Origin: a virus
Strand: one strand, 5' to 3'
DNA length: 21,202 nucleotides
Virus record (IMG/VR): IMGVR_UViG_3300015372_000032
Span: 1 to 21,202 of that record
Shown here: piece by piece, positions 2,693 through 9,696 of the stretch
Layout: every line of letters starts with the position of its first letter
Numbering within the stretch: position 1 is the stretch's first letter
Made by a program: the position numbers and the translations under genes
The notes under the pieces: model-generated
Databases searched by the model: none
The model's input: only the letters and a program-made list of their open reading frames with translations
Told to the model about the DNA's origin: nothing

Positions 2693-3324
2693 CGGCCCAG
2701 GTGCTCGGGTTCCGGCAGATCCAGCAGGTAGCCGAGCCCTCGGACCCGGCCCACCTGGGTGCCGCGTAGATCGGTCCATCCCCACATGGTGTCCGTGTGC
2801 TCCGGACGTATCCCCACGAGGCCGTACAGGTCCGCCACGGTCACGACCTCGTACTGCGAGCCGAGGATGTCGTACATGCGGGACAGGACCTCCTCAGCGT
2901 CCTCGCGCGTCTGCAGGATGATCTCGTCGAAGCTGTGACGAGCTCTGGCCTGCCGGGAGATCTCCGGCCGCGTGGGCAGCGGAGGCCGGTCGTCGACGCG
3001 CATCGGCCCTCGGGAATATGAGTTGTAGCTCACATAGCCCAGAGGGTTGGGACCGGAGCCACGGCTGCGCGGGCGAACCGCCCCGTTGAACAGCCGCTCG
3101 ATCCCGCCCTGGAGCACGTCGACCACGAGGTCGCGGGCCTGGGGAAGAGCGTTCTCCCAGATCATGTACTCCCAGGCTGTCCTGGCATCGCCGCCTACGA
3201 ACGTCTGGGCGAACTTCTTCCCCAGAGACGGCTTCCGCCGGACAGCATCGGCCTGCGTGACTCGCTGGACCGGCTCTTTCGGCGGGCCCTTCGAGGCCTT
3301 GCTGTTGGGTGGAAAGTTTTCCAT
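2689..3324 (-). CDS. Conserved phage protein of unknown function (211 aa)
   Basis: Soluble and basic at the N-terminus, with a disordered Lys/Pro-rich start (MENFPPNSKASKGPPKEPVQ). Recognisable blocks are RRKPSLGKKFAQTFVGGDAR (about 29-48), a Ser/Arg/Gly-rich linker with GYVSYNSYSRG near 100, FDEIILQTREDAEEVLSRMYDIL near 135, VVTVADLYGLVGI near 160, WGWTDLRG near 180 and a final GYLLDLPEPEHL. This order matches a conserved protein of Gram-positive phages that I remember only as hypothetical. ATG at 3322-3324 follows AAAGGACACT. A strong terminator-like hairpin (3346-3367) lies directly upstream with no array promoter in between, so its own promoter, or read-through, is unexplained. Confidence 0.85.
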   Translation of the reverse strand: MENFPPNSKASKGPPKEPVQRVTQADAVRRKPSLGKKFAQTFVGGDARTAWEYMIWENALPQARDLVVDVLQGGIERLFNGAVRPRSRGSGPNPLGYVSYNSYSRGPMRVDDRPPLPTRPEISRQARARHSFDEIILQTREDAEEVLSRMYDILGSQYEVVTVADLYGLVGIRPEHTDTMWGWTDLRGTQVGRVRGLGYLLDLPEPEHLGR

Positions 3325-3345
3325 AGTGTCCTTTGAGAAAGAAAA

Positions 3346-3367
3346 GGAGAACCCGTGTGGGCTCTCC
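3346..3367 (-). terminator. Intrinsic terminator after the 95-aa gene
   Basis: In the minus-strand RNA a 9-bp stem (GGAGAGCCC with GGGUUCUCC, one G-U pair) closes a four-base ACAC loop and is followed at once by a U-rich run (3330-3345, UUUUCUUUCU). It starts 9 bases after the TAA at 3376. The CCCGTGTGGG-type loop resembles the other hairpins of the array. Confidence 0.8.
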
Positions 3368-3375
3368 AGTTGAGG

Positions 3376-3663
3376 TTACTTCTCGGTGGGGGTCTTCTCG
3401 GCCTTTCGGGCCTTCCGCTCCCTCCACTTCGAGCCGACGAAGTCCAGCGTCTTGTCGACGGCTGAGTCGGTCACACCAGACGTGGCAGTGGCGACTACTT
3501 CTCCACCCGTCCAGCAACCGGCCTTGACAACGATGTTGTCAGTGTCGATCTCTGTGTGGGTTTCCAGCAGGTCCATGCTCGTCTGATATGCGCCGAGCGC
3601 AACCAGTCGGTTGATGAAGAACTTCGTGAACTCACGTGGAGTTCGGGGTAGGTCGATCTGCAT
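3376..3663 (-). CDS. Small phage protein, unknown (95 aa), own promoter unit
   Basis: Starts MQIDLPRTPREFTKFFINRL and ends in a Lys/Arg/Glu-rich tail (ERKARKAEKTPTEK); the middle is Thr/Val-rich with a single Cys-Trp pair. No membrane segment and no recognised family. ATG at 3661-3663 follows AAGGAGTAATTCG. It is bracketed by an array promoter upstream (-10 at 3693-3698) and an intrinsic terminator downstream, so it is an isolated one-gene transcription unit, like the small genes at 5.9-8.1 kb. Confidence 0.75.
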   Translation of the reverse strand: MQIDLPRTPREFTKFFINRLVALGAYQTSMDLLETHTEIDTDNIVVKAGCWTGGEVVATATSGVTDSAVDKTLDFVGSKWRERKARKAEKTPTEK

Positions 3664-3687
3664 CGAATTACTCCTTAGTTGAGGGTG

Positions 3688-3724
3688 TTCTCATTAGAAC
3701 CCATGTTTTCTTCGCGAGAAGAAA
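3688..3724 (-). promoter_or_regulatory. Array promoter copy I
   Basis: Ninth good copy of the repeated element. Read on the minus strand: a TCGCG-containing box, GAAAACATGG, two bases, a TCTAAT -10 (3693-3698), then GAGAAC. It lies 24 bases upstream of the ATG at 3663. It is about 2.3 kb away from the other copies, so the element is not merely a local tandem duplication. Confidence 0.7.
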
Positions 3725-3728
3725 GGGA

Positions 3729-3755
3729 CCCGGGGGCCGGTACTGCACCCCCGGG
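3729..3755 (-). terminator. Terminator-like hairpin after the chaperone-like gene
   Basis: Perfect 8-bp GC stem (CCCGGGGG at 3729-3736 with CCCCCGGG at 3748-3755) and an 11-base loop, about 18 bases after the TAA at 3773. In the minus direction it runs into UCCCUUUCUUC, which overlaps the start of promoter copy I. Confidence 0.65.
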
Positions 3756-3772
3756 CTGAGAACCCCCTCTCC

Positions 3773-4414
3773 TTAGGAGAGCTTGTAGCGGCCTTCGACG
3801 AGGCCGCGCTGAAGTTCGGCCGAATCCATCTCCCGGATCTCCACCGCCGTGAGGACGCGAGCCTCAGGCGTGTCCGACATGGCCTCTCGAGGAGGATGCT
3901 TCATCGACTCCGTCGGGACGAACGGCTCGTCGCGATCGACGGGGCTGTCCATCGGACGCGGAGCCGACTCCTTCTCGAACACGTTGGCCGTGGCCACCTC
4001 GGGCCGCGGGCCAGGAGGAGGCGTCTTCCGCTCGATCTGGGCGATCTGGTCGGCGAGGTCGTGAGGGATGATCCCGTTGACGAACTCGGCCGCCTTGGAC
4101 GGGTCGCCGAGAAGCTCCATGAGGAGCTCGGAGAAGGCCTCGCTCGACTGGAACTCCTCGCGGTACTGGGCGTTCTTGATGTGCCGGGCGCCGTCCTCGG
4201 ACCGCTTGCCGTAGGCCGTGAGGACGATCTGGGTGAGGAAGCCCCAGATCTTCTCGATGTCCTGCTCCTGCTGGATCCGCTCCAGGTAGAACTTGAGGCC
4301 GCCCTTCTGCTGAGCCTCCATCTGGATCAGGTCCGCCTTGGAGAGATGGAAGTAGAACGTCTCCTCCCTCTCCTGATCGTTGAAGTCCTTGTACTTGATG
4401 GTCTTCTTGATCAT
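3773..4414 (-). CDS. Tail-assembly-chaperone-like phage protein (213 aa)
   Basis: The N-terminal half (MIKKTIKYKDFNDQEREETF, then FHLSKADLIQME near 22-34, VLTAYGKRSEDG near 65, SEAFSELLMELLGDPSKAAEFVNGIIP near 95-121) matches my memory of a phage protein annotated as hypothetical or chaperone-like in Gram-positive phages. The C-terminal half (about 130-200) is Pro/Glu-rich and probably disordered, ending ELQRGLVEGRYKLS. ATG at 4412-4414 overlaps the upstream TGA (ATGA). A longer upstream reading to 4516 crosses the neighbouring gene and is rejected. It lies about 13 kb from the canonical chaperone at 17778-18320. Family is moderately sure, role unproven. Confidence 0.85.
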   Translation of the reverse strand: MIKKTIKYKDFNDQEREETFYFHLSKADLIQMEAQQKGGLKFYLERIQQEQDIEKIWGFLTQIVLTAYGKRSEDGARHIKNAQYREEFQSSEAFSELLMELLGDPSKAAEFVNGIIPHDLADQIAQIERKTPPPGPRPEVATANVFEKESAPRPMDSPVDRDEPFVPTESMKHPPREAMSDTPEARVLTAVEIREMDSAELQRGLVEGRYKLS

Positions 4415-4533
4415 CAGACGCCAGGCCCGTCCGTCGTCTGCTGCTTCTTCGACTCCTCGTCGATCTTCTGTGCGATGAGCACGGCCATGGCTCCCATCAT
4501 GAAGCCATTGGACCACGCGAGGAACGTCTTCAT
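4414..4533 (-). CDS. Small membrane peptide (39 aa)
   Basis: MKTFLAWSNGFMMGAMAVLI then AQKIDEESKKQQ: one membrane helix (about residues 4-21) and a charged cytoplasmic-type tail. The ATG at 4531-4533 follows GGAAGGAAACCT and overlaps the TGA of the upstream gene; its own stop overlaps the next start, so three genes are coupled. No family recognised. Confidence 0.7.
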   Translation of the reverse strand: MKTFLAWSNGFMMGAMAVLIAQKIDEESKKQQTTDGPGV

Positions 4534-4739
4534 AGGTTTCCTTCCTTGAGTCGTCGATCTTGCGCTTCTACCTCGTCGAGGTACAGCTCGAGCTTGTGGT
4601 TGCCGAACTCCTTGGCCGAATATGCCATGGCTGCGGCGGCGATGCCCAGGGCGGTGCACGCCTTGGTCATGTGGTTGGGGATGAAGGTGAAGGGCCCGAC
4701 CGCAATGGCCAGGCCCTCCTTCGTCAGGAGCAGTCGCAT
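4530..4739 (-). CDS. Small membrane protein (69 aa)
   Basis: MRLLLTKEGLAIAVGPFTFI, followed by a hydrophobic helix about residues 27-42 (ACTALGIAAAAMAYSA) and a charged helix KLELYLDEVEAQDRRLKEGN. ATG at 4737-4739 overlaps the stop of the DUF6353-like gene (ATGA); a longer start would run inside that gene. Probable single-pass membrane protein of unknown function that may act with its larger membrane neighbour. Confidence 0.7.
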   Translation of the reverse strand: MRLLLTKEGLAIAVGPFTFIPNHMTKACTALGIAAAAMAYSAKEFGNHKLELYLDEVEAQDRRLKEGNL

Positions 4740-5539
4740 CAGTACAGCTGGCGGTACTCGGTCCTCGGGTTGGTCACGAACTCCACCGCGAGGCACGGCT
4801 TGTCGTCAGGCGACTTCACGGTCGTGATCACGACGTCGAGCGCCCCTGTCGTGGCCATGTTCCAGCCGACCTCCTCGCTGAAGCCCGTCGGTTTCAGGCC
4901 GAGCTGGTCGTACCAGAGCGACAGGCTGGCGTACTGCGACTGCCACAGCTCCTCGTTGATCGCGTTCTTCGCCGAGAGGATCTTCTCGGCCGAGCCGTGG
5001 AAGTACCGGTCCGAGTGCATGTCGTAGCAGAGCACCTCGCCGCTGGCGACGACGATGATGTTCTGCGGAGGCGGGTTGACGTTCACCCGGTCCTGCGCGA
5101 TCTCCTCCTCGACCGCTTCCTTCTTCGGCTTCGAGAGCTTCTCCTCGACGCGCTGCTTGTAGTCCGCCCAGCGCTGCTCCGACAAGCCGTACGCGGCTGC
5201 CAAGGCTGCCGCCCGCTTCGCCGAGATCTGGTTGGCTGCGACGATGCTGGTGATCGTGAGCACACCGATGGCGACCGGCGGGATGAACAGCGGCGCCGCG
5301 ATCTTGATCTTCTCCATCTTGGTGAGCGTCTCGTCCGGGATGTCGTCCGGATCGTTCGCACGCGCGATCGCCTGGCGCTCACGGTTCTCGATGTCGATCC
5401 GGAGGGCTGCGTTGCCTCCGGCCCGAGCGGCCAGCGTCGCGGTCAGGACCGTGCCGATGACCCCACCTGCGGTGAGGATCGTCGAGGCATTGTCCGAGAT
5501 CAGCTTTCCTGCGGCTTCCTTTAGCCCAGGGATGTTCAT
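4739..5539 (-). CDS. DUF6353-like two-helix membrane protein (copy a)
   Basis: 266 aa. Membrane segments at about residues 20-38 (TILTAGGVIGTVLTATLAA) and 81-102 (AAPLFIPPVAIGVLTITSIV) flank a charged region rich in Asp/Glu. An Ala-rich helix (AAALAAAYGLSEQRWADYKQ), a Lys/Glu coiled-coil-like stretch and a soluble C-terminal domain (CYDMHSDRYFHGSAEKI near 165, LSLWYDQLGLKPTGFSEEVGWN near 205, ending YRQLY) follow. The same plan in the gene at 1458-2369 marks the two as paralogues. ATG at 5537-5539 follows AAGGAGCAACT. Function unknown; a membrane-associated infection or superinfection role is a guess. Confidence 0.85.
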   Translation of the reverse strand: MNIPGLKEAAGKLISDNASTILTAGGVIGTVLTATLAARAGGNAALRIDIENRERQAIARANDPDDIPDETLTKMEKIKIAAPLFIPPVAIGVLTITSIVAANQISAKRAAALAAAYGLSEQRWADYKQRVEEKLSKPKKEAVEEEIAQDRVNVNPPPQNIIVVASGEVLCYDMHSDRYFHGSAEKILSAKNAINEELWQSQYASLSLWYDQLGLKPTGFSEEVGWNMATTGALDVVITTVKSPDDKPCLAVEFVTNPRTEYRQLY

Positions 5540-5569
5540 AGTTGCTCCTTGTAGTTTGTCCCTAGAGGG

Positions 5570-5695
5570 TTATCGACGCCGCATCTCGCGGACGAAGATC
5601 CAGATGCCCCACAGCCCACCCGTGAAGATGAATGCGAGGATGTCGATGCAGAAATCAAGAGCCCCGTAGGGCTCTGCCACGCGCACCAGGCGCAT
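5570..5695 (-). CDS. Small membrane protein with GGLWGIW motif (41 aa)
   Basis: The peptide MRLVRVAEPYGALDFCIDIL continues AFIFTGGLWGIWIFVREMRRR: a short soluble start, one hydrophobic helix and a very basic end. The GGLW-IW pattern is shared with small phage membrane proteins and loosely with superinfection-immunity peptides, which is only a hint. The ATG at 5693-5695 has a poor ribosome site (GAGACGAC), and no better in-frame start follows the stop of the upstream gene, so translation may depend on re-initiation from it. Confidence 0.65.
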   Translation of the reverse strand: MRLVRVAEPYGALDFCIDILAFIFTGGLWGIWIFVREMRRR

Positions 5696-5741
5696 GTCGT
5701 CTCGAGGAATGCGACTCTCGAGAATATATGTCTGGCGGCGT

Positions 5742-5900
5742 CTACGCACGCTGCTGGATCCCGATCGCGTTCGGATTGCGCTTGAGCGCTCTCTTCTCAG
5801 CGACCTCTCGCGACGAGGCTCGCACCTTGACGTCGCGCGTGAGATTGTTCTCATACACCAGCGTGATGTTGTACACGCGGGAGGCCTTCTTTGCCTTCAT
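5742..5900 (-). CDS. Small basic phage protein (52 aa)
   Basis: MKAKKASRVYNITLVYENNL then TRDVKVRASSREVAEKRALK: Lys/Arg-rich, looks like a small beta-alpha fold, ends QQRA. ATG at 5898-5900 follows AAAGGAAGGC. The frame is open upstream, and a second ATG at 5991-5993 with a GGAG site would add 31 residues; that extension (LHQRPPFLFSLSISGKEG) does not look conserved, so I prefer the short form. It is the first gene after promoter copy H and so leads the transcript that runs into the DUF6353-like genes. Confidence 0.7.
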   Translation of the reverse strand: MKAKKASRVYNITLVYENNLTRDVKVRASSREVAEKRALKRNPNAIGIQQRA

Positions 5901-6018
5901 GCCTTCCTTTCCACTAATCGATAAAGAAAATAAGAAAGGCGGTCGCTGGTGTAGCTCGGACCTTATAGCTGTGACGCGGTTAGCCTTCAACATTACTGTC
6001 TCCGGTACCACAGCTACC
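5901..6018 (-). other. Long leader of the 52-aa gene transcript with 8-bp stem
   Basis: About 118 bases lie between the expected transcription start of promoter H and the ATG at 5900, against roughly 25-40 bases for the other units. A perfect 8-bp stem (TAGCTGTG at 5966-5973 with CACAGCTA at 6009-6016) sits at the very start of the transcript with a 35-base loop. An in-frame ATG at 5993 lies inside the loop. No riboswitch class is recognisable. Confidence 0.4.
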
Positions 6019-6019
6019 T

Positions 6020-6053
6020 CTCTCATTACAAGCCATGTATTCTACGCGAAACT
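6020..6053 (-). promoter_or_regulatory. Array promoter copy H
   Basis: Minus-strand reading: TTCGCG, two bases, GAATACATGG, two bases, TGTAAT (-10, at 6025-6030), then GAGAGA. Drives the 52-aa gene and probably the run down to 3773. Confidence 0.7.
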
Positions 6054-6075
6054 GAAAGCCCGTGTGGGCTCTCAG
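6052..6075 (-). terminator. Terminator-like hairpin overlapping the stop of the 41-aa gene
   Basis: Inner stem AGCCC/GGGCT (6057-6061 with 6066-6070) around a four-base loop, extended by CTGA/TCAG (6052-6055 with 6072-6075). The TGA stop at 6072-6074 is part of the stem. It is followed by AGUUUCGCG, the start of promoter H. Confidence 0.6.
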
Positions 6076-6197
6076 CAGTAGATCTTCGTGTAACCGGGGA
6101 CGAGGGTCGTCTCGGCCAGCTTCTTCTGGCTCTTCTTGATCTTGCGCTCGTACTTGACGGCGGCGAGGATCTCGAGGGGCTTGCGAATGCGGCTCAT
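6072..6197 (-). CDS. Small basic phage protein (41 aa)
   Basis: MSRIRKPLEILAAVKYERKI followed by KKSQKKLAETTLVPGYTKIYC. Strongly basic with an amphipathic helix, ending in a single Cys. ATG at 6195-6197 follows AGGAGAAATTGTT. It has its own promoter copy (G) upstream and its own hairpin at the stop. Too short for family assignment; a nucleic-acid or host-protein binder is possible from the charge alone. Confidence 0.65.
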   Translation of the reverse strand: MSRIRKPLEILAAVKYERKIKKSQKKLAETTLVPGYTKIYC

Positions 6198-6224
6198 AAC
6201 AATTTCTCCTAAGTTGGGTGAAGG

Positions 6225-6256
6225 TTCTCATTATAAGCCGTGTTTTCTACGCGAAA
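6225..6256 (-). promoter_or_regulatory. Array promoter copy G
   Basis: TTCGCG, two bases, GAAAACACGG, two bases, a perfect TATAAT -10 (6230-6235) and GAGAAC on the minus strand. This copy is close to the consensus. The ATG of its gene is 27 bases downstream. Confidence 0.75.
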
Positions 6257-6257
6257 G

Positions 6258-6287
6258 CTCAGACCCCGTGTAGGGATCTGGGCTGAG
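6258..6287 (-). terminator. Terminator-like hairpin after the 62-aa gene
   Basis: Outer CTCAG/CTGAG stem (6258-6262 with 6283-6287) and inner AGACCCC/GGGATCT pairing with one mismatch around a GTGTA loop. It begins 3 bases after the TAG at 6290 and is followed by CUUUCGCG, the TTCGCG box of promoter G. Confidence 0.6.
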
Positions 6288-6289
6288 TG

Positions 6290-6478
6290 CTACTTCCTGC
6301 GGCGGCGTTCCTGACGGATCTTGTAGTTGACCTGTCGCGCGTAGGCTCGCGAACCCGCGGACTCGCCATGGGCCTGGATGACCTTTCCGACTGCTGCCAG
6401 AAATGCCGTTCCAATCCCAAGGGCAAGGGTCGGGTTCTGCTCGGCCTCGCGCTTGAGGTTCTCGAAGAATCGGTTCAT
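6290..6478 (-). CDS. Small membrane-associated phage protein (62 aa)
   Basis: MNRFFENLKREAEQNPTLAL then GIGTAFLAAVGKVIQ, one weak hydrophobic segment (about residues 17-34), and a very basic tail ending IRQERRRRK. ATG at 6476-6478 follows AAGGAGCACTA. One-gene unit between promoter F and the hairpin at 6258-6287. The short charged N-terminus, helix and poly-basic tail are typical of small phage membrane proteins; no named family. Confidence 0.7.
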   Translation of the reverse strand: MNRFFENLKREAEQNPTLALGIGTAFLAAVGKVIQAHGESAGSRAYARQVNYKIRQERRRRK

Positions 6479-6501
6479 TAGTGCTCCTTAGAGGGGTATA
6501 G

Positions 6502-6535
6502 TTCTCATTACATGCGATGTTTTGCGCGCGAAACT
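6502..6535 (-). promoter_or_regulatory. Array promoter copy F
   Basis: TTCGCG, two bases, GCAAAACATCG, TGTAAT -10 (6507-6512) and GAGAAC on the minus strand. More diverged in the spacer than copies D and G. Confidence 0.65.
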
Positions 6536-6536
6536 C

Positions 6537-6556
6537 AGAACCCGGGTAGGGGTTCT
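6537..6556 (-). terminator. Terminator-like hairpin after the 58-aa gene
   Basis: Perfect 7-bp stem AGAACCC/GGGTTCT (6537-6543 with 6550-6556), six-base loop, about 34 bases after the stop at 6591 and directly before the GAGUUUCGCG of promoter F. The U-run is only three bases. Confidence 0.55.
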
Positions 6557-6590
6557 AAGTTGAGGTTTCCTGTTCGGATTCCTGAAGGGT

Positions 6591-6767
6591 TTACAGCTCG
6601 ACCAGCTGGCTCTTGAGCTCGGACCGCTTGGCGCGCAGCTCCTGGATCTGGGCAGTGATCTCGTCCATCTCTGAACGGATCTCTGCATTGTGGATCTCGG
6701 CGTATGCGCGACCAATGCGGGTCGTGGCGTCAATAGCGACAGTGGTGATTCGCGTAACAATCTTCAT
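6591..6767 (-). CDS. Small coiled-coil phage protein (58 aa)
   Basis: MKIVTRITTVAIDATTRIGR, then a helix with a heptad-like pattern (EIRSEMDEITAQIQELRAKR and SELKSQLVEL), which predicts a coiled coil from about residue 28 to the end. No membrane segment. ATG at 6765-6767 follows CAGGAGAACACC. One-gene unit driven by promoter E. The frame happens to be open up to the ATG inside the promoter, but no ribosome site supports that start. Function unknown; oligomerisation is likely. Confidence 0.7.
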   Translation of the reverse strand: MKIVTRITTVAIDATTRIGRAYAEIHNAEIRSEMDEITAQIQELRAKRSELKSQLVEL

Positions 6768-6790
6768 GGTGTTCTCCTGTTTTAGGGGGG

Positions 6791-6825
6791 TTCTCATTAT
6801 ATGCCATGTTTTCCACGCGAAAAAT
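6791..6825 (-). promoter_or_regulatory. Array promoter copy E
   Basis: TTCGCG, two bases, GAAAACATGG, CA, TATAAT -10 (6796-6801) and GAGAAC on the minus strand. Its upstream TTTTT is the U-tract of the hairpin at 6823-6849, so terminator and promoter share bases. Confidence 0.75.
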
Positions 6826-6849
6826 GAGACCCCGTGTAGGGGCCTCATT
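6823..6849 (-). terminator. Intrinsic terminator after the 63-aa gene
   Basis: Two-part stem AATGAG/CTCATT plus CCCC/GGGG around a GTGTA loop (6834-6838) with a single mismatch, followed by five U residues (6820-6824). Starts 2 bases after the TAA at 6852. This is the clearest terminator of the array. Confidence 0.8.
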
Positions 6850-6851
6850 CT

Positions 6852-7043
6852 TTAGGCGGCTTCCTCTTCGGCAACAACGCCGGTGGTGTAGGCGTCGTAC
6901 ACGCCCTCCTCGACTGCGAACTCGTGCCACTCCTGCGCCCGCTTCGTGACGACGACGGCGACGCCGGTGATGGCGCCAGCGACGGCGTACTTGACGCGGT
7001 GCCGGATGACATGATTCTTGATCTTGGTGAGCTTGTCCTTCAT
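6852..7043 (-). CDS. Small membrane protein (63 aa)
   Basis: MKDKLTKIKNHVIRHRVKYA then VAGAITGVAVVVTKRAQEWH: a basic N-terminus, one hydrophobic helix (about residues 18-33) and an acidic end VVAEEEAA. By the positive-inside rule the N-terminus would stay in the cytoplasm. ATG at 7041-7043 follows AGGAGGTAGTA. One-gene unit between promoter D and the terminator at 6823-6849. No family recognised. Confidence 0.7.
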   Translation of the reverse strand: MKDKLTKIKNHVIRHRVKYAVAGAITGVAVVVTKRAQEWHEFAVEEGVYDAYTTGVVAEEEAA

Positions 7044-7072
7044 TACTACCTCCTATGGTTGGGGCGAGAGGA

Positions 7073-7107
7073 TTCTCATTATAAGCCGTGTTTTCCGCGC
7101 GAAAAAA
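7073..7107 (-). promoter_or_regulatory. Array promoter copy D
   Basis: TTCGCG, two bases, GAAAACACGG, two bases, TATAAT (7078-7083), GAGAAT on the minus strand, preceded by six T residues shared with the hairpin at 7108-7130. Confidence 0.75.
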
Positions 7108-7130
7108 GAGAAGCCTGGTTATGGCTCCTC
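7108..7130 (-). terminator. Intrinsic terminator after the 45-aa gene
   Basis: GAG-AGCC/GGCT-CTC stem with one mismatch and a seven-base loop, followed by six U residues (7102-7107). Begins 8 bases after the TAA at 7138. Confidence 0.7.
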
Positions 7131-7137
7131 TTCGGGA

Positions 7138-7275
7138 TTACTTCTTGCGGGTGTTCCAGACGAACTTGGTCACTCCAGTAGCGGTCTTGACGAGGGCGAC
7201 GCCACAGCTGTACGCGAAGTAAGCGGTGTCGGCGATCTCTGTCTTGACGGCAGTGGGATAGACGGTGATCTTCAT
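7138..7275 (-). CDS. Small phage protein, unknown (45 aa)
   Basis: MKITVYPTAVKTEIADTAYF then AYSCGVALVKTATGVTKFVW and a basic NTRKK end. Looks like a small beta-rich domain with one Cys. ATG at 7273-7275 follows AAAGGAGAAACC; TAA at 7138-7140. It sits alone between promoter C and the terminator at 7108-7130, the same layout as its neighbours, which supports a gene this short. No family recognised. Confidence 0.65.
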   Translation of the reverse strand: MKITVYPTAVKTEIADTAYFAYSCGVALVKTATGVTKFVWNTRKK

Positions 7276-7296
7276 GGTTTCTCCTTTGAAAGTTGG

Positions 7297-7331
7297 TTTC
7301 CATTACAACCCATGTTTTCCGCGCGAAAAAA
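7297..7331 (-). promoter_or_regulatory. Array promoter copy C
   Basis: TTCGCG, two bases, GAAAACATGG, two bases, TGTAAT (7302-7307), then GGAAAC on the minus strand. Its leading six T residues are the U-tract of the terminator at 7337-7354. Confidence 0.7.
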
Positions 7332-7336
7332 GGGAA

Positions 7337-7354
7337 AGCCCCCTTTCAGGGGCT
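7337..7354 (-). terminator. Intrinsic terminator overlapping the stop of the 84-aa gene
   Basis: AGCCCC/GGGGCT stem with a short loop that contains the TGA stop (7346-7348), followed by UUCCCUUUUUU (U-tract at 7326-7331). Termination signal and stop codon share the same bases. Confidence 0.75.
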
Positions 7355-7600
7355 CTCACTCTGGATCATCTTCGTGACGTGGGGCAGTGCAATCAGGTCG
7401 AACTCGTCGAGGTCAATGTTGTTCTCGTTGAGGATGTGGATCAGGTACTTCAGCTCGCCTTCGAGAGTATCGGCGACCTCTACCATCTCGCGAATACACT
7501 CGACGGCAGCGATCAACGCTTTCTTTCTCTTGCGGCTGACAGCCAGATCCCATCCCCAACAGAAGGCAAGACTGATCACGACTTCGGTCGGTATCTTCAT
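7346..7600 (-). CDS. Small phage protein, unknown (84 aa)
   Basis: MKIPTEVVISLAFCWGWDLA, basic SRKRKK, a helical middle (ALIAAVECIREMVEVADTLE) and an acidic C-terminal part (NENNIDLDEFDLIAL). The N-terminal 20 residues are hydrophobic and could be a short membrane anchor. ATG at 7598-7600 follows AAGGAGCCGTA. One-gene unit driven by promoter B. No family recognised. Confidence 0.7.
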   Translation of the reverse strand: MKIPTEVVISLAFCWGWDLAVSRKRKKALIAAVECIREMVEVADTLEGELKYLIHILNENNIDLDEFDLIALPHVTKMIQSESP

Positions 7601-7621
7601 TACGGCTCCTTGTTACTAGGG

Positions 7622-7656
7622 TTCTCATTAGAAGCCGTGTAATCCTCGCGAAGAAA
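7622..7656 (-). promoter_or_regulatory. Array promoter copy B
   Basis: TTCGCG, two bases, GATTACACGG, two bases, TCTAAT (7627-7632), then GAGAAC on the minus strand. A weak 4-bp hairpin (7663-7674) sits just upstream where the other units have a terminator. Confidence 0.65.
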
Positions 7657-7697
7657 TATATGGCCCTCTGGGGCAAATCTCCCCCCGGGAAAAAAAC

Positions 7698-7717
7698 AGA
7701 ATCCGTGTTTGCGAAAC
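7698..7717 (-). repeat. Decayed copy of the array promoter
   Basis: On the minus strand this reads TTTCGC, AAACACGG, ATTCTG, which aligns with the consensus if about four spacer bases are deleted; the -10 is lost (ATTCTG instead of TATAAT). It is followed by seven T residues (7690-7696). The 7601-7777 gap also holds the good copy B and an 11-bp palindrome (7728-7738) but no ORF with a ribosome site, so it may mark a lost small gene. Confidence 0.4.
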
Positions 7718-7777
7718 GAGAACGCCATGCAATTTGCACAGCGCTCCCGCTTCGACTTTCCTCCGGGGAGGGAGGGT

Positions 7778-8059
7778 CTATTTCGGCTTGATGACGAATC
7801 CGAGCGCTTTCGTCACAATGACGTTGAACTGCTCGTGTCGGACGATCATCACGATGCCGAGGATGTTGGTTGCCACGAGGGCGGCCGTGTTCGGGCTCAG
7901 CTTCTCGGGCCGGTCTTCGGCCCGCATCTGCTGAAGCTTCTTCAGCCGCTCCACGAGGGTTCCGTATTCCTCAGAATTCGGATCTGTCGTCTCGAGTTCG
8001 CGCAGCACTCTACGTACTTGCTTGTCGTACTCGGACTCGCCGTGGGCGAAAATATTCAT
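7778..8059 (-). CDS. Conserved small phage protein with C-terminal hydrophobic helix (93 aa)
   Basis: An N-terminal charged helical region (YDKQVRRVLRELETTDPNSE, VERLKKLQQM) is followed by SPNTAALVATNILGIVMIVR (about 54-73), a hydrophobic segment, then a Val/Ile-rich end ALGFVIKPK. The pattern SP-T-A-IAANI-GI--VIRHE is one I recall from small genes located after tail genes in Gram-positive phages. ATG at 8057-8059 follows AAAGGAGAAAG. It is the first unit of the promoter array. Function unknown; membrane association is likely. Confidence 0.8.
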   Translation of the reverse strand: MNIFAHGESEYDKQVRRVLRELETTDPNSEEYGTLVERLKKLQQMRAEDRPEKLSPNTAALVATNILGIVMIVRHEQFNVIVTKALGFVIKPK

Positions 8060-8078
8060 CTTTCTCCTTTGGGGGTTG

Positions 8079-8112
8079 TTCTCATTATAAGCGGTGTTTC
8101 CACCGCGAATTT
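8079..8112 (-). promoter_or_regulatory. Array promoter copy A, with hairpin spacer
   Basis: First copy after the structural genes. TTCGCG, two bases, GAAACACCG, two bases, TATAAT (8084-8089), GAGAAC on the minus strand. Unlike the others, its spacer forms a perfect 6-bp stem with a GAAA loop (GCGGTG/CACCGC, plus-strand 8091-8106), and no separate upstream terminator is visible. Confidence 0.7.
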
Positions 8113-8115
8113 CCC

Positions 8116-8205
8116 CTACAACCCAGGGAGACTGGCTAGTATCGCAATCACTCCGAGGAGCATGAGACAGACGAGGCACACGAGCGCCACGGCCGTCCCG
8201 CTCAA
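8116..8205 (-). CDS. Single-helix membrane peptide (29 aa), TTG start
   Basis: MSGTAVALVCLVCLMLLGVI followed by AILASLPGL: one hydrophobic helix with two cysteines. The TTG at 8203-8205 overlaps the TGA of the upstream gene (TTTGA), with only a weak AAGG site, so coupled translation is assumed. It ends at TAG 8116-8118, 4 bases before promoter A. The gene is too short to be sure of; support is the uninterrupted helix and the exact fit between the neighbours. Confidence 0.5.
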   Translation of the reverse strand: MSGTAVALVCLVCLMLLGVIAILASLPGL

Positions 8206-8513
8206 ACTCTGTGAACCTTGAAGACGACCTCCTCCTTGTCCTTCAGGTCCTCGGGAGCCTTGTCCAGCTCGAGAGTGAATATGTCCTTCTCGTCGGACTC
8301 GGTCACGACGATCGATCCCGCGCTGACACGCCCCTTCTTCGCGTCGTCCCACTTCTGCTTGGCGAAGACCGCTCCGCCGGTGATGAGGCCGACGAACACG
8401 CCGTTGAGAAGCTGGTACCGGTCCGAGGTGTTGGCCAGATCGATGATCCCCAGACCCAGCAGGGTGGCGAAGAACGCCGAGACCCCGCCCCACAGCGCTA
8501 CGTGATTACGCAT
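8202..8513 (-). CDS. Two-helix membrane protein downstream of tail genes (103 aa)
   Basis: Two membrane segments (about residues 5-25, HVALWGGVSAFFATLLGLGI; about 35-53, LLNGVFVGLITGGAVFA) are followed by KQKWDDAKKGR and a soluble beta-rich tail with ESDEKDIFTLELDKAPEDL and VVFKVHRV. ATG at 8511-8513 lies 3 bases after AGGAGG; the preceding GTG has no room for a ribosome site. A holin would have this size and topology, but the conserved-looking C-terminal domain and lack of a lysin next door leave the role open. Confidence 0.8.
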   Translation of the reverse strand: MRNHVALWGGVSAFFATLLGLGIIDLANTSDRYQLLNGVFVGLITGGAVFAKQKWDDAKKGRVSAGSIVVTESDEKDIFTLELDKAPEDLKDKEEVVFKVHRV

Positions 8514-8520
8514 CACCCTC

Positions 8521-9696
8521 CTATACGACTGAGATGGTCGGGTACTGCTTCTCCCCTGTCTTGTCCTCCGATCGGATGAACTCCGTGACCCGGGCCTTGG
8601 CCGTGGTCCCCGTGAGGCTCACGAGCTCGATGATGTCGCCGAGCCCGTAGTCGACCCCGTACGTGTAGTCGCCCGCGGGGGACGTCTGCCCGTCGATGGC
8701 CTGGATGTAGTTGTGGTTGGCAAGAGCGTCCTTGGCGTTCTGGTCGATGAACTGGTTGATGTCGTCGATGCCGACGACGGTGCTCCAGCCACCTCCGTAG
8801 TAGGCCCCTCCCCCGAACTGTACCTTGTGGCCGACGGGCTCGCCCTCGGCGTCGGTGACCATGACCCGCCTGTCGAATCCCTCGGGCTTCGGTGCGGCAG
8901 GATCGAAATATCGGAGGTAGACCTGGTCCTTGTACCAGACGTAGACGACGTTCTTGAAGTTCGCGTTCGAGTGGACCTCCTTCAGCCCCGCCAGCGTCTC
9001 CATGTTCGGTGACAGGCGGACCAGGGGCTCCGGGCCCCCGGTGGAGTGGTCCTTGCCGCGGTAGGTGGAGAACTTGAGGACGTACCCGAGAACGGGGTCT
9101 GCCGAGTCGAGATACAGCTTGATCCCGACTTGTTCCTGCTCGGCCAGCGTCTTGATCCCGTCGTAGAGGGGCCCGATGGGGATCGTGTAGCGCTCGACGA
9201 CTCCCCCGGTGTCCACATCGCCGATCACGAGATGGTCGATCGCCTCGAAGTCCCAGTCGAGCTGCACGTTGGTGAAGCTGGTCCCGGGGATGGTCGTGGG
9301 GGATATGGCCATCTTGGTGACAACGTCGGCCAGGAACGCGCCGATCTTCTTCGTGTCGTCGGAGTAGTCCAGGATCTTGGGGCCGTTCTCCCCGTCGCTG
9401 GTCCAGGACGGGTTCTTGAACCAGGCGATCCTCTGGTTGAGGAATTCGAGCAGGCTCTTCCCGACCACCGTCATGAGGCCTTCCTCGATGGACTGCGTCT
9501 CGAGGAGCATGACCTCCTTGGTCCCCCGGAGGGCCAAATATGTTCCGGGTGCCAGCTTGGCGATGTTCTCGTCCGTGGCCTGGACGACCAGCTGGACATC
9601 TCCGGCAGACAGGTACCGCTCGGTCCAGATCGCCGAGACGAAGTCGTCGACGACATCCTTGTCGAGGAAGGTCCCGCCCAGCGTGTAGAGATCCAC
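8521..9696 (-). CDS. Gp37-like siphovirus tail/baseplate protein
   Basis: 391 aa. Resembles the ReqiPepy6 Gp37-like family (a tail protein placed after the distal tail protein in actinobacteriophages). Features: TLGGTFLDKDVVDDFVSAIW near the start, VQLVVQATDENIAKL, LETQSIEEGLMTVVGKSLLE (about 65-85), a middle DHLVIGDVDTGGVVERYTIP, SNANFKNVVYVWYKDQVYLR near 245, and a Gly-rich GGGAYYGGGW. The C-terminal segment DYGLGDIIELVSLTGTTAKA is typical of late baseplate hub-type domains. GTG at 9694-9696 overlaps the upstream TAG (TAGTG) with a weak GGGGG site; a longer reading to 9798 lies inside the distal tail gene and is rejected. Probable role: tail tip assembly. Confidence 0.85.
   Translation of the reverse strand: MDLYTLGGTFLDKDVVDDFVSAIWTERYLSAGDVQLVVQATDENIAKLAPGTYLALRGTKEVMLLETQSIEEGLMTVVGKSLLEFLNQRIAWFKNPSWTSDGENGPKILDYSDDTKKIGAFLADVVTKMAISPTTIPGTSFTNVQLDWDFEAIDHLVIGDVDTGGVVERYTIPIGPLYDGIKTLAEQEQVGIKLYLDSADPVLGYVLKFSTYRGKDHSTGGPEPLVRLSPNMETLAGLKEVHSNANFKNVVYVWYKDQVYLRYFDPAAPKPEGFDRRVMVTDAEGEPVGHKVQFGGGAYYGGGWSTVVGIDDINQFIDQNAKDALANHNYIQAIDGQTSPAGDYTYGVDYGLGDIIELVSLTGTTAKARVTEFIRSEDKTGEKQYPTISVV

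Follow-up and report, generated by a model that had tools for sequence, protein, structure and literature searches.

What reads a nearly identical promoter-like element that recurs in front of a row of small phage genes? The question arises in IMG/VR virus record IMGVR_UViG_3300015372_000032, positions 1 to 21,202 of which were analyzed here as one stretch of 21,202 nucleotides (nt), referred to below as the window. A reading of this stretch made from its sequence alone had left the choice among a phage activator, a sigma-like factor, a polymerase and a repressor. Of these, the polymerase was strongly supported by co-occurrence of the element with the protein family PHROG 4291 in phages of two bacterial phyla, and the data call for no further candidate. 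The elements are very probably the cognate promoters of this predicted phage-encoded, single-chain two-barrel RNA polymerase.

The repeated element in the window

The window was scanned for TTCGCGNNGAAAACAYGGNNTNTAATGAGAAC with up to three mismatches. Nine matches of 32 base pairs (bp) each were obtained, all on the minus strand and co-oriented with the genes, and a repeat finder recovered the identical set. No copy appeared in 100 dinucleotide shuffles of the window, where the chance expectation is none; the reported array is real. True copies scored +22 to +43 bits with a motif matrix. A decayed copy that had been proposed at 7698-7717 scored -17 to -25 bits and was dropped. The nine copies, found by pattern scan plus matrix, are listed with their hexamer and the unit that follows (lengths in amino acids, aa).

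8078..8109, minus strand: putative promoter element (TATAAT), 93-aa gene
7621..7652, minus strand: putative promoter element (TCTAAT), 84-aa gene
7296..7327, minus strand: putative promoter element (TGTAAT), 45-aa gene; the most diverged copy
7072..7103, minus strand: putative promoter element (TATAAT), 63-aa gene
6790..6821, minus strand: putative promoter element (TATAAT), 58-aa gene
6501..6532, minus strand: putative promoter element (TGTAAT), 62-aa gene
6224..6255, minus strand: putative promoter element (TATAAT), 41-aa gene
6019..6050, minus strand: putative promoter element (TGTAAT), structured noncoding RNA
3687..3718, minus strand: putative promoter element (TCTAAT), 95-aa gene, outside the array

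The second base is the only variable position of the hexamer (4 TATAAT, 3 TGTAAT, 2 TCTAAT), as the sequence-only reading had stated. Behind eight of the nine copies, a ribosome-binding site and then an open reading frame (ORF) of 41-95 codons follow about 20 nt downstream. One of these is the copy outside the array, which had been placed near 3688-3724 and was recovered about 20 nt before the 95-aa gene (3376-3663). Eight array genes had each been assigned an element. For seven of them (93, 84, 45, 63, 58, 62 and 41 aa) the element lies at this distance, whereas the eighth, of 52 aa, begins more than 110 nt downstream of the copy at 6019-6050, behind a noncoding structured stretch. The AGGAG sequence is separate from the element and stands between the element end and the start codon, the element ending about 20 nt before the start. 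The overlap with the ribosome-binding site that characterizes the cluster K motif is absent. The proposed distinction from the cluster K start-associated sequence (SAS) holds, since the element is located upstream of the ribosome-binding site and also appears to drive noncoding RNAs.

Distribution of the element and co-occurrence with PHROG 4291

About 200 named actinophages and many IMG/VR contigs (at least 120 IMG/VR stretches) contain members of the element family. Hosts of the element-bearing phages are Gordonia (cluster DJ), Streptomyces, Arthrobacter, Rhodococcus and Microbacterium. A sister contig, G001 (45,079 bp), has nine copies. When relatives were scanned with a position matrix, most genomes yielded 6-29 copies, on the coding strand only, compared with 0 in Markov nulls. 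Occurrence at random places in full genomes, which the earlier reading had named as evidence against its proposal, was checked in complete and near-complete relatives; almost all copies lay on the coding strand between the tail and replication genes. Sequence was sufficient for classifying 641 elements; 533 of them stand before an ORF (median 20 nt to the start codon, median length 75 aa). The other 108 precede no ORF by a mechanical rule, which probably missed a few coding units among them, and appear to precede short noncoding RNAs.

Presence of the element was compared with that of the polymerase in both directions. PHROG 4291 is encoded in 31 of 35 long element-bearing records, and 26 of the 30 contigs found via the polymerase carry the element, on one strand only and with 0 matches to the reversed pattern. 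All eight exceptions are contigs truncated before the missing region: G002, G017, G018 and G026 end before the nuclease-polymerase locus, and G043, G044, G055 and G057 do not include the cassette region. The sister contig G001 has an intact polymerase gene at 41961-44705. A search of 50,697 phage records gave 202 element hits and 250 polymerase hits; these, like the host figures that follow, are compared as counts and not as sets. Element and polymerase hits numbered 55/55 for Gordonia, 54/54 for Streptomyces, 4/4 for Rhodococcus, 4/4 for Microbacterium and, with a strict element probe, 82/95 for Arthrobacter. Apart from the truncated contigs, the motif and the polymerase occurred together in the contigs compared.

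Diverged versions of the element accompany polymerase homologs in Eevee (Curtobacterium; CGCARGAATTACARGGCCTTTAATAGA), Lactococcus phages 1706 (GCAYNTTTTACAYNNNCTATAGTAGA) and P078 (TTTTACATACCCTATAATGA) and Faecalibacterium phage FP_oengus (ACGCGAAAAATACAGCYTSCTTTATGGA, read by eye from upstream regions). Two saliva phages with the polymerase also have diverged, consistent versions. In the hexamer region, Eevee has TTTAATAGA and FP_oengus has CTTTATGGA. Variants differ among G041, G054, G011, Eevee (L231) and FP_oengus (L257), comprising TATARTGACA, TAATAATGAGA and the two just named, and are largely uniform per genome. This within-genome uniformity suggests co-evolution with the recognizing protein.

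Identity and predicted fold of PHROG 4291

In the phages examined, the partner protein of about 900 aa is encoded next to VRR-Nuc and Cas4-like nuclease genes. Its record labels vary between "helix-turn-helix DNA-binding protein" and "RNA-dependent RNA polymerase," and it matches PHROG 4291 over the full length (E 0). The sequence SGADFDGD, which contains the DFDGD motif (catalytic DxDxD), shows no variation across 5 named phages and 25 contigs. Helix-turn-helix matches were obtained at both ends of the protein, and the match to the Pfam family RdRP (PF05183) was below threshold (E 0.002-0.02). An AlphaFold2 model based on the 25 contig sequences reached a pLDDT of 76.7 and a pTM of 0.61. Foldseek searches with this model returned QDE-1 (E 2.5e-9), gp64 of Thermus phage P23-45 (1.4e-7) and gp62 of P74 (2.1e-7); all 15 matches at E<=0.001 were QDE-1 or P23-45-type gp64/gp62 RNA polymerases. 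A sequence search of the PDB with the polymerase profile gave no genuine match, and the P23-45 polymerases have no detectable sequence similarity to PHROG 4291, so that the link is one of fold and motif only. By these two properties PHROG 4291 is assigned to the two-barrel RNA polymerases, with predicted activity.

The original record annotates the PHROG 4291 homolog of phage 1706, orf75, as structural. This points to an injected polymerase, and the PHROG 4291 enzyme may be packaged in the virion and enter the cell with the DNA. The N terminus (P0001-P0005) contains a near-invariant HYGxxRxSGRYPWGSG motif in a low-confidence part of the model. It was considered as a packaging tag common to several virion proteins and rejected, the motif being present, where found, once per genome and in the polymerase only.

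Noncoding RNAs and the predicted transcript start

The copy at 6019-6050 is followed by a predicted noncoding RNA.

5920..6024, minus strand: predicted noncoding RNA of about 105 nt; begins with the element's GAGA, pairing of its 5' end with the 3' CCUUUCUU, U-rich end

Homologs of this RNA were found in L105, L131 and L118, and 4 pairs are changed on both sides among three sequences; the z-score of its folding against shuffles was only -1.4. Behind most of the 108 non-ORF elements, a short stretch ending in a U-tract follows, and one element in ReqiPoco6 precedes a tRNA-Ala. Rfam searches at gathering thresholds with the window and ten related loci gave no match.

In 95 short RNAs, pairing with the 3' end was predicted for the bases that begin with the G after TATAAT, and it dropped sharply upstream. 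For 21 of 87 nonredundant RNAs, the 3' tail of the same RNA contains an exact complement of the hexamer directly after TATAAT, compared with 6.8 ± 2.2 for permuted tails, which reached the observed number in 0 of 2000 cases. The excess fades upstream and is gone a few bases before the TATAAT/GAGA junction. This complementarity between the two RNA ends is most simply read as a sign that GAGA is transcribed and that the RNA starts on the G after TATAAT or no more than about 2 nt from it. The earlier prediction of starts about 7 bases beyond the -10 is probably wrong.

An alternative reader is the host sigma-A polymerase, which would use TATAAT as its -10 while a phage protein on TTCGCG/ACAYG replaces the -35 contact, as MotA/AsiA do at T4 middle promoters. 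The TATAAT consensus and the conserved upstream block near -30 (sigma numbering) agree with this proposal, and the many phage proteins without known function offer candidate activators. A search of window positions 3000-9000 for sigma-70-type promoters (-35 hexamer 16-18 nt upstream of the -10) gave 0 sites; the lack of a canonical -35 agrees with a replaced contact but also counts against the sigma-A reading. However, the start of a sigma-A transcript is expected 6-8 nt downstream of TATAAT, whereas the start proposed here abuts the hexamer and would lie about 6 nt upstream of the sigma-A position. Sigma-A depends most critically on an A as the second base of the hexamer. This A is missing in five of nine window copies and seven of nine G001 copies (G or C in 12 of 18), which counts for the phage polymerase over sigma-A. 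The forms TTTAATAGA in Eevee and CTTTATGGA in FP_oengus, and the conservation of the pattern across two phyla along with an RNA polymerase, also weigh against sigma-A with an activator, which we consider unlikely.

Further RNAs were observed behind elements of other phages. One recurring family of about 90-130 nt combines AGACACGAAUG, a tRNA T-arm-like hairpin (GUAGG-UGAAAAC-CCUAC, GGUUCAAAUCC in some) and a hairpin with loop UUUUCGUUGG. It was seen at L026:2138, L043, L064, L065, L083, L100, L114, L121, L129, L130, L133, L141, L143:15033 and L144:27986, with no Rfam match at gathering score in the loci searched. Degenerate tRNA-like RNAs directly follow the element at L015:3275 (Jodelie19), L145:23223 (Gordon), L232:19536 (P078) and L258:19860 (D_HF5_2C). 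They end in a U-tract and not in CCA, are rejected as tRNAs by ARAGORN, and are possible tRNA decoys. At L024:4770, L028:5507 and L083, a self-complementary hairpin plus U-tract stands right after the element, and RNAs of about 30-45 nt are expected.

Cassette genes and terminators

The window is an actinophage fragment with a major capsid/protease fusion at its right end and a tape measure protein at 10.6-15.4 kb, all on the minus strand. The genes behind the elements are as follows.

7778..8059, minus strand: cassette gene, 93 aa, PHROG 5818 (no known function)
7346..7600, minus strand: cassette gene, 84 aa
7138..7275, minus strand: cassette gene, 45 aa; homolog in the sister phage G001
6852..7043, minus strand: cassette gene, 63 aa, PHROG 12653 (no known function)
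6591..6767, minus strand: cassette gene, 58 aa; in G001 it and the next gene have exchanged places
6290..6478, minus strand: cassette gene, 62 aa, PHROG 18827
6072..6197, minus strand: cassette gene, 41 aa
5742..5900, minus strand: gene, 52 aa, downstream of the noncoding RNA
3376..3663, minus strand: cassette gene, 95 aa

Pfam and PHROG searches with the cassette proteins assigned no function. In Gordonia DJ phages, the homolog of the 63-aa gene also has its own element. A DUF6353 (PF19880) membrane protein is encoded at 4739-5539 of the window; related phages conserve it where the cassette array ends.

Directly before each of the nine copies lies a terminator-like hairpin with a tail that extends into the element (folding energies -10.7 to -22.1 kcal/mol), a feature that the sequence-only reading did not contain.

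8113..8129, minus strand: weaker hairpin before the 8078 element, -10.7 kcal/mol
7663..7674, minus strand: weak hairpin before the 7621 element, -12.0 kcal/mol
7329..7362, minus strand: putative terminator hairpin abutting the 7296 element, -20.6 kcal/mol
7105..7133, minus strand: putative terminator hairpin abutting the 7072 element, -16.0 kcal/mol
6822..6850, minus strand: putative terminator hairpin abutting the 6790 element, U-tract running into TTCGCG, -21.2 kcal/mol (computed for a 45-nt stretch)
6533..6560, minus strand: putative terminator hairpin abutting the 6501 element, -17.3 kcal/mol
6256..6284, minus strand: putative terminator hairpin abutting the 6224 element, -17.9 kcal/mol
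6051..6076, minus strand: putative terminator hairpin abutting the 6019 element, -18.7 kcal/mol
3729..3756, minus strand: putative terminator hairpin before the 3687 element, -22.1 kcal/mol

Because each predicted promoter stands directly behind the terminator of the preceding unit, the region reads as a chain of independent units. Neither a repressor operator nor a recombination repeat alone explains this anatomy well. Many co-oriented intergenic copies are also the pattern of stoperators, operators at which a repressor would silence all units jointly, as in cluster A mycobacteriophages and Streptomyces phage R4 (PMC10276819). The element, however, is not palindromic, is always located just upstream of a gene or RNA of the same orientation, and has last bases that behave as the 5' end of an RNA. 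In addition, the full record of the Gordonia DJ phage Jodelie19 has no annotated repressor or integrase, and the stoperator is very improbable.

Cassette order provides the case for a dispersed or recombination repeat that aids cassette shuffling and has no promoter role. Orthologs of most window cassette genes are present in G001 (67-84% identical), with the 58-aa and 62-aa cassettes in swapped order and one cassette replaced. Against this stand the fixed distance to the gene starts (median 20 nt), the terminator right before each copy, the clade-specific concerted variants and the diverged versions that track the polymerase. We regard a repeat of this kind as extremely improbable; shuffling may be a by-product.

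Discussion

The proposed reader of these promoters is a polymerase of about 900 aa that has a QDE-1/YonO-like double-psi beta-barrel fold and helix-turn-helix segments at its ends. We infer that it binds the element, where it would recognize CGCR near -25, ACAY near -14 and TATAAT from -6 to -1. Initiation would take place at the GAGA that follows or no more than about 2 nt away. Each unit would consist of a terminator, a promoter and either a ribosome-binding site with one small gene or a short noncoding RNA. From their location and the structural annotation of the 1706 homolog, the cassette units are probably early genes.

Several points weigh against the cognate-polymerase interpretation. 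The evidence is computational throughout. TATAAT is also the host consensus, and A is kept at the second position in 91% of 662 copies overall. Global TM-scores of the model to QDE-1 are about 0.35, and such modest values make this a fold-and-motif assignment, not a proof of activity. The window itself ends before the polymerase gene, which is uninformative because the fragment stops before the nuclease-polymerase locus. Co-occurrence could partly reflect shared phage ancestry, and another group-conserved protein could read the element. As to the start, RNA complementarity cannot separate the G from the preceding A or T.

We also lean, slightly, toward a broader proposal of a conserved promoter system in phages of Actinobacteria and Firmicutes. 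Here the polymerase, carried in the virion at least in 1706, would start right after the TATAAT of CGCR/ACAY/TATAAT. It would drive chains of one-gene cassettes and structured, often tRNA-like RNAs in which the 5' end supplied by the promoter pairs with the 3' terminator and closes the molecule. The TATAAT, which resembles the host -10, would be read by a different enzyme.

Among known proteins, gp66 of the crAss-like phage phi14:2 and fungal QDE-1, the best structural match, share the DFDGD-type two-barrel fold. The phi14:2 gp66 is a virion protein, as 1706 orf75 is likewise annotated to be structural, but it is a much larger chain and matches only weakly (E 0.12). QDE-1 functions in RNA interference, with no phage promoter. 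The chain of terminators and promoters resembles the early region of the actinophage phiC31, where early promoters are interleaved with terminators; to our knowledge, no two-barrel RNA polymerase has been claimed for phiC31.

P23-45 has a phage two-barrel polymerase and, ahead of its early genes, a conserved motif; in its relatives this promoter motif is present or absent along with the RNA polymerase (PMC10770324). Its virion (gp96) and non-virion (gp64) polymerases use AT-rich and GC-rich motifs unlike the present element, and the virion enzyme forms a fusion with the tape measure protein (PMC10770324). The units described here are mostly single genes or small RNAs, unlike those of P23-45. 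YonO of the Bacillus prophage SP-beta is, by its description, a phage single-chain two-barrel polymerase of similar size; it transcribes a single late operon, and the paper leaves its promoter sequence open (PMC5467207). In contrast to that single late operon, many promoters are located here between the tail and replication genes. The cluster K SAS and ESAS and the repeats of Microbacterium clusters EC, EF, EG and EI are similarly multi-copy, co-oriented, intergenic and near gene starts (PMC7302621). These actinophage start-associated and intergenic repeats differ in sequence, SAS lies at the ribosome-binding site, and no polymerase link is reported (PMC7302621).

Arrays of small membrane genes were noted earlier in clusters AM/AU and in the Rhodococcus phages Pepy6/Poco6, without a promoter (PMC5513430). 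No description of the element was found for clusters AM/AU (PMC5513430), CC (PMC13313380) or DJ (PMC11749222). The literature search returned no earlier account of the element or of its PHROG 4291 link, which is weak evidence with subscription papers, including those on Pepy6/Poco6, mostly outside the search. Phage polymerases with their own promoters are already known; this element and its link to PHROG 4291 appear to be new.

Single-chain two-barrel polymerases are among the closest relatives of the cellular RNA polymerase core. For a large family of them, represented in about 250 named phages, the proposal gives a DNA sequence, a start site and target genes, and a little-studied group of enzymes thereby gains a testable promoter. 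The family includes laboratory-tractable phages of Gordonia, Arthrobacter and Streptomyces, which would allow a direct test of activity and specificity. The cassette genes and small RNAs are marked as predicted transcripts of the phage's own enzyme and thus as a place to seek host-takeover and anti-defense functions, and the element provides a signature for finding and typing such phages.

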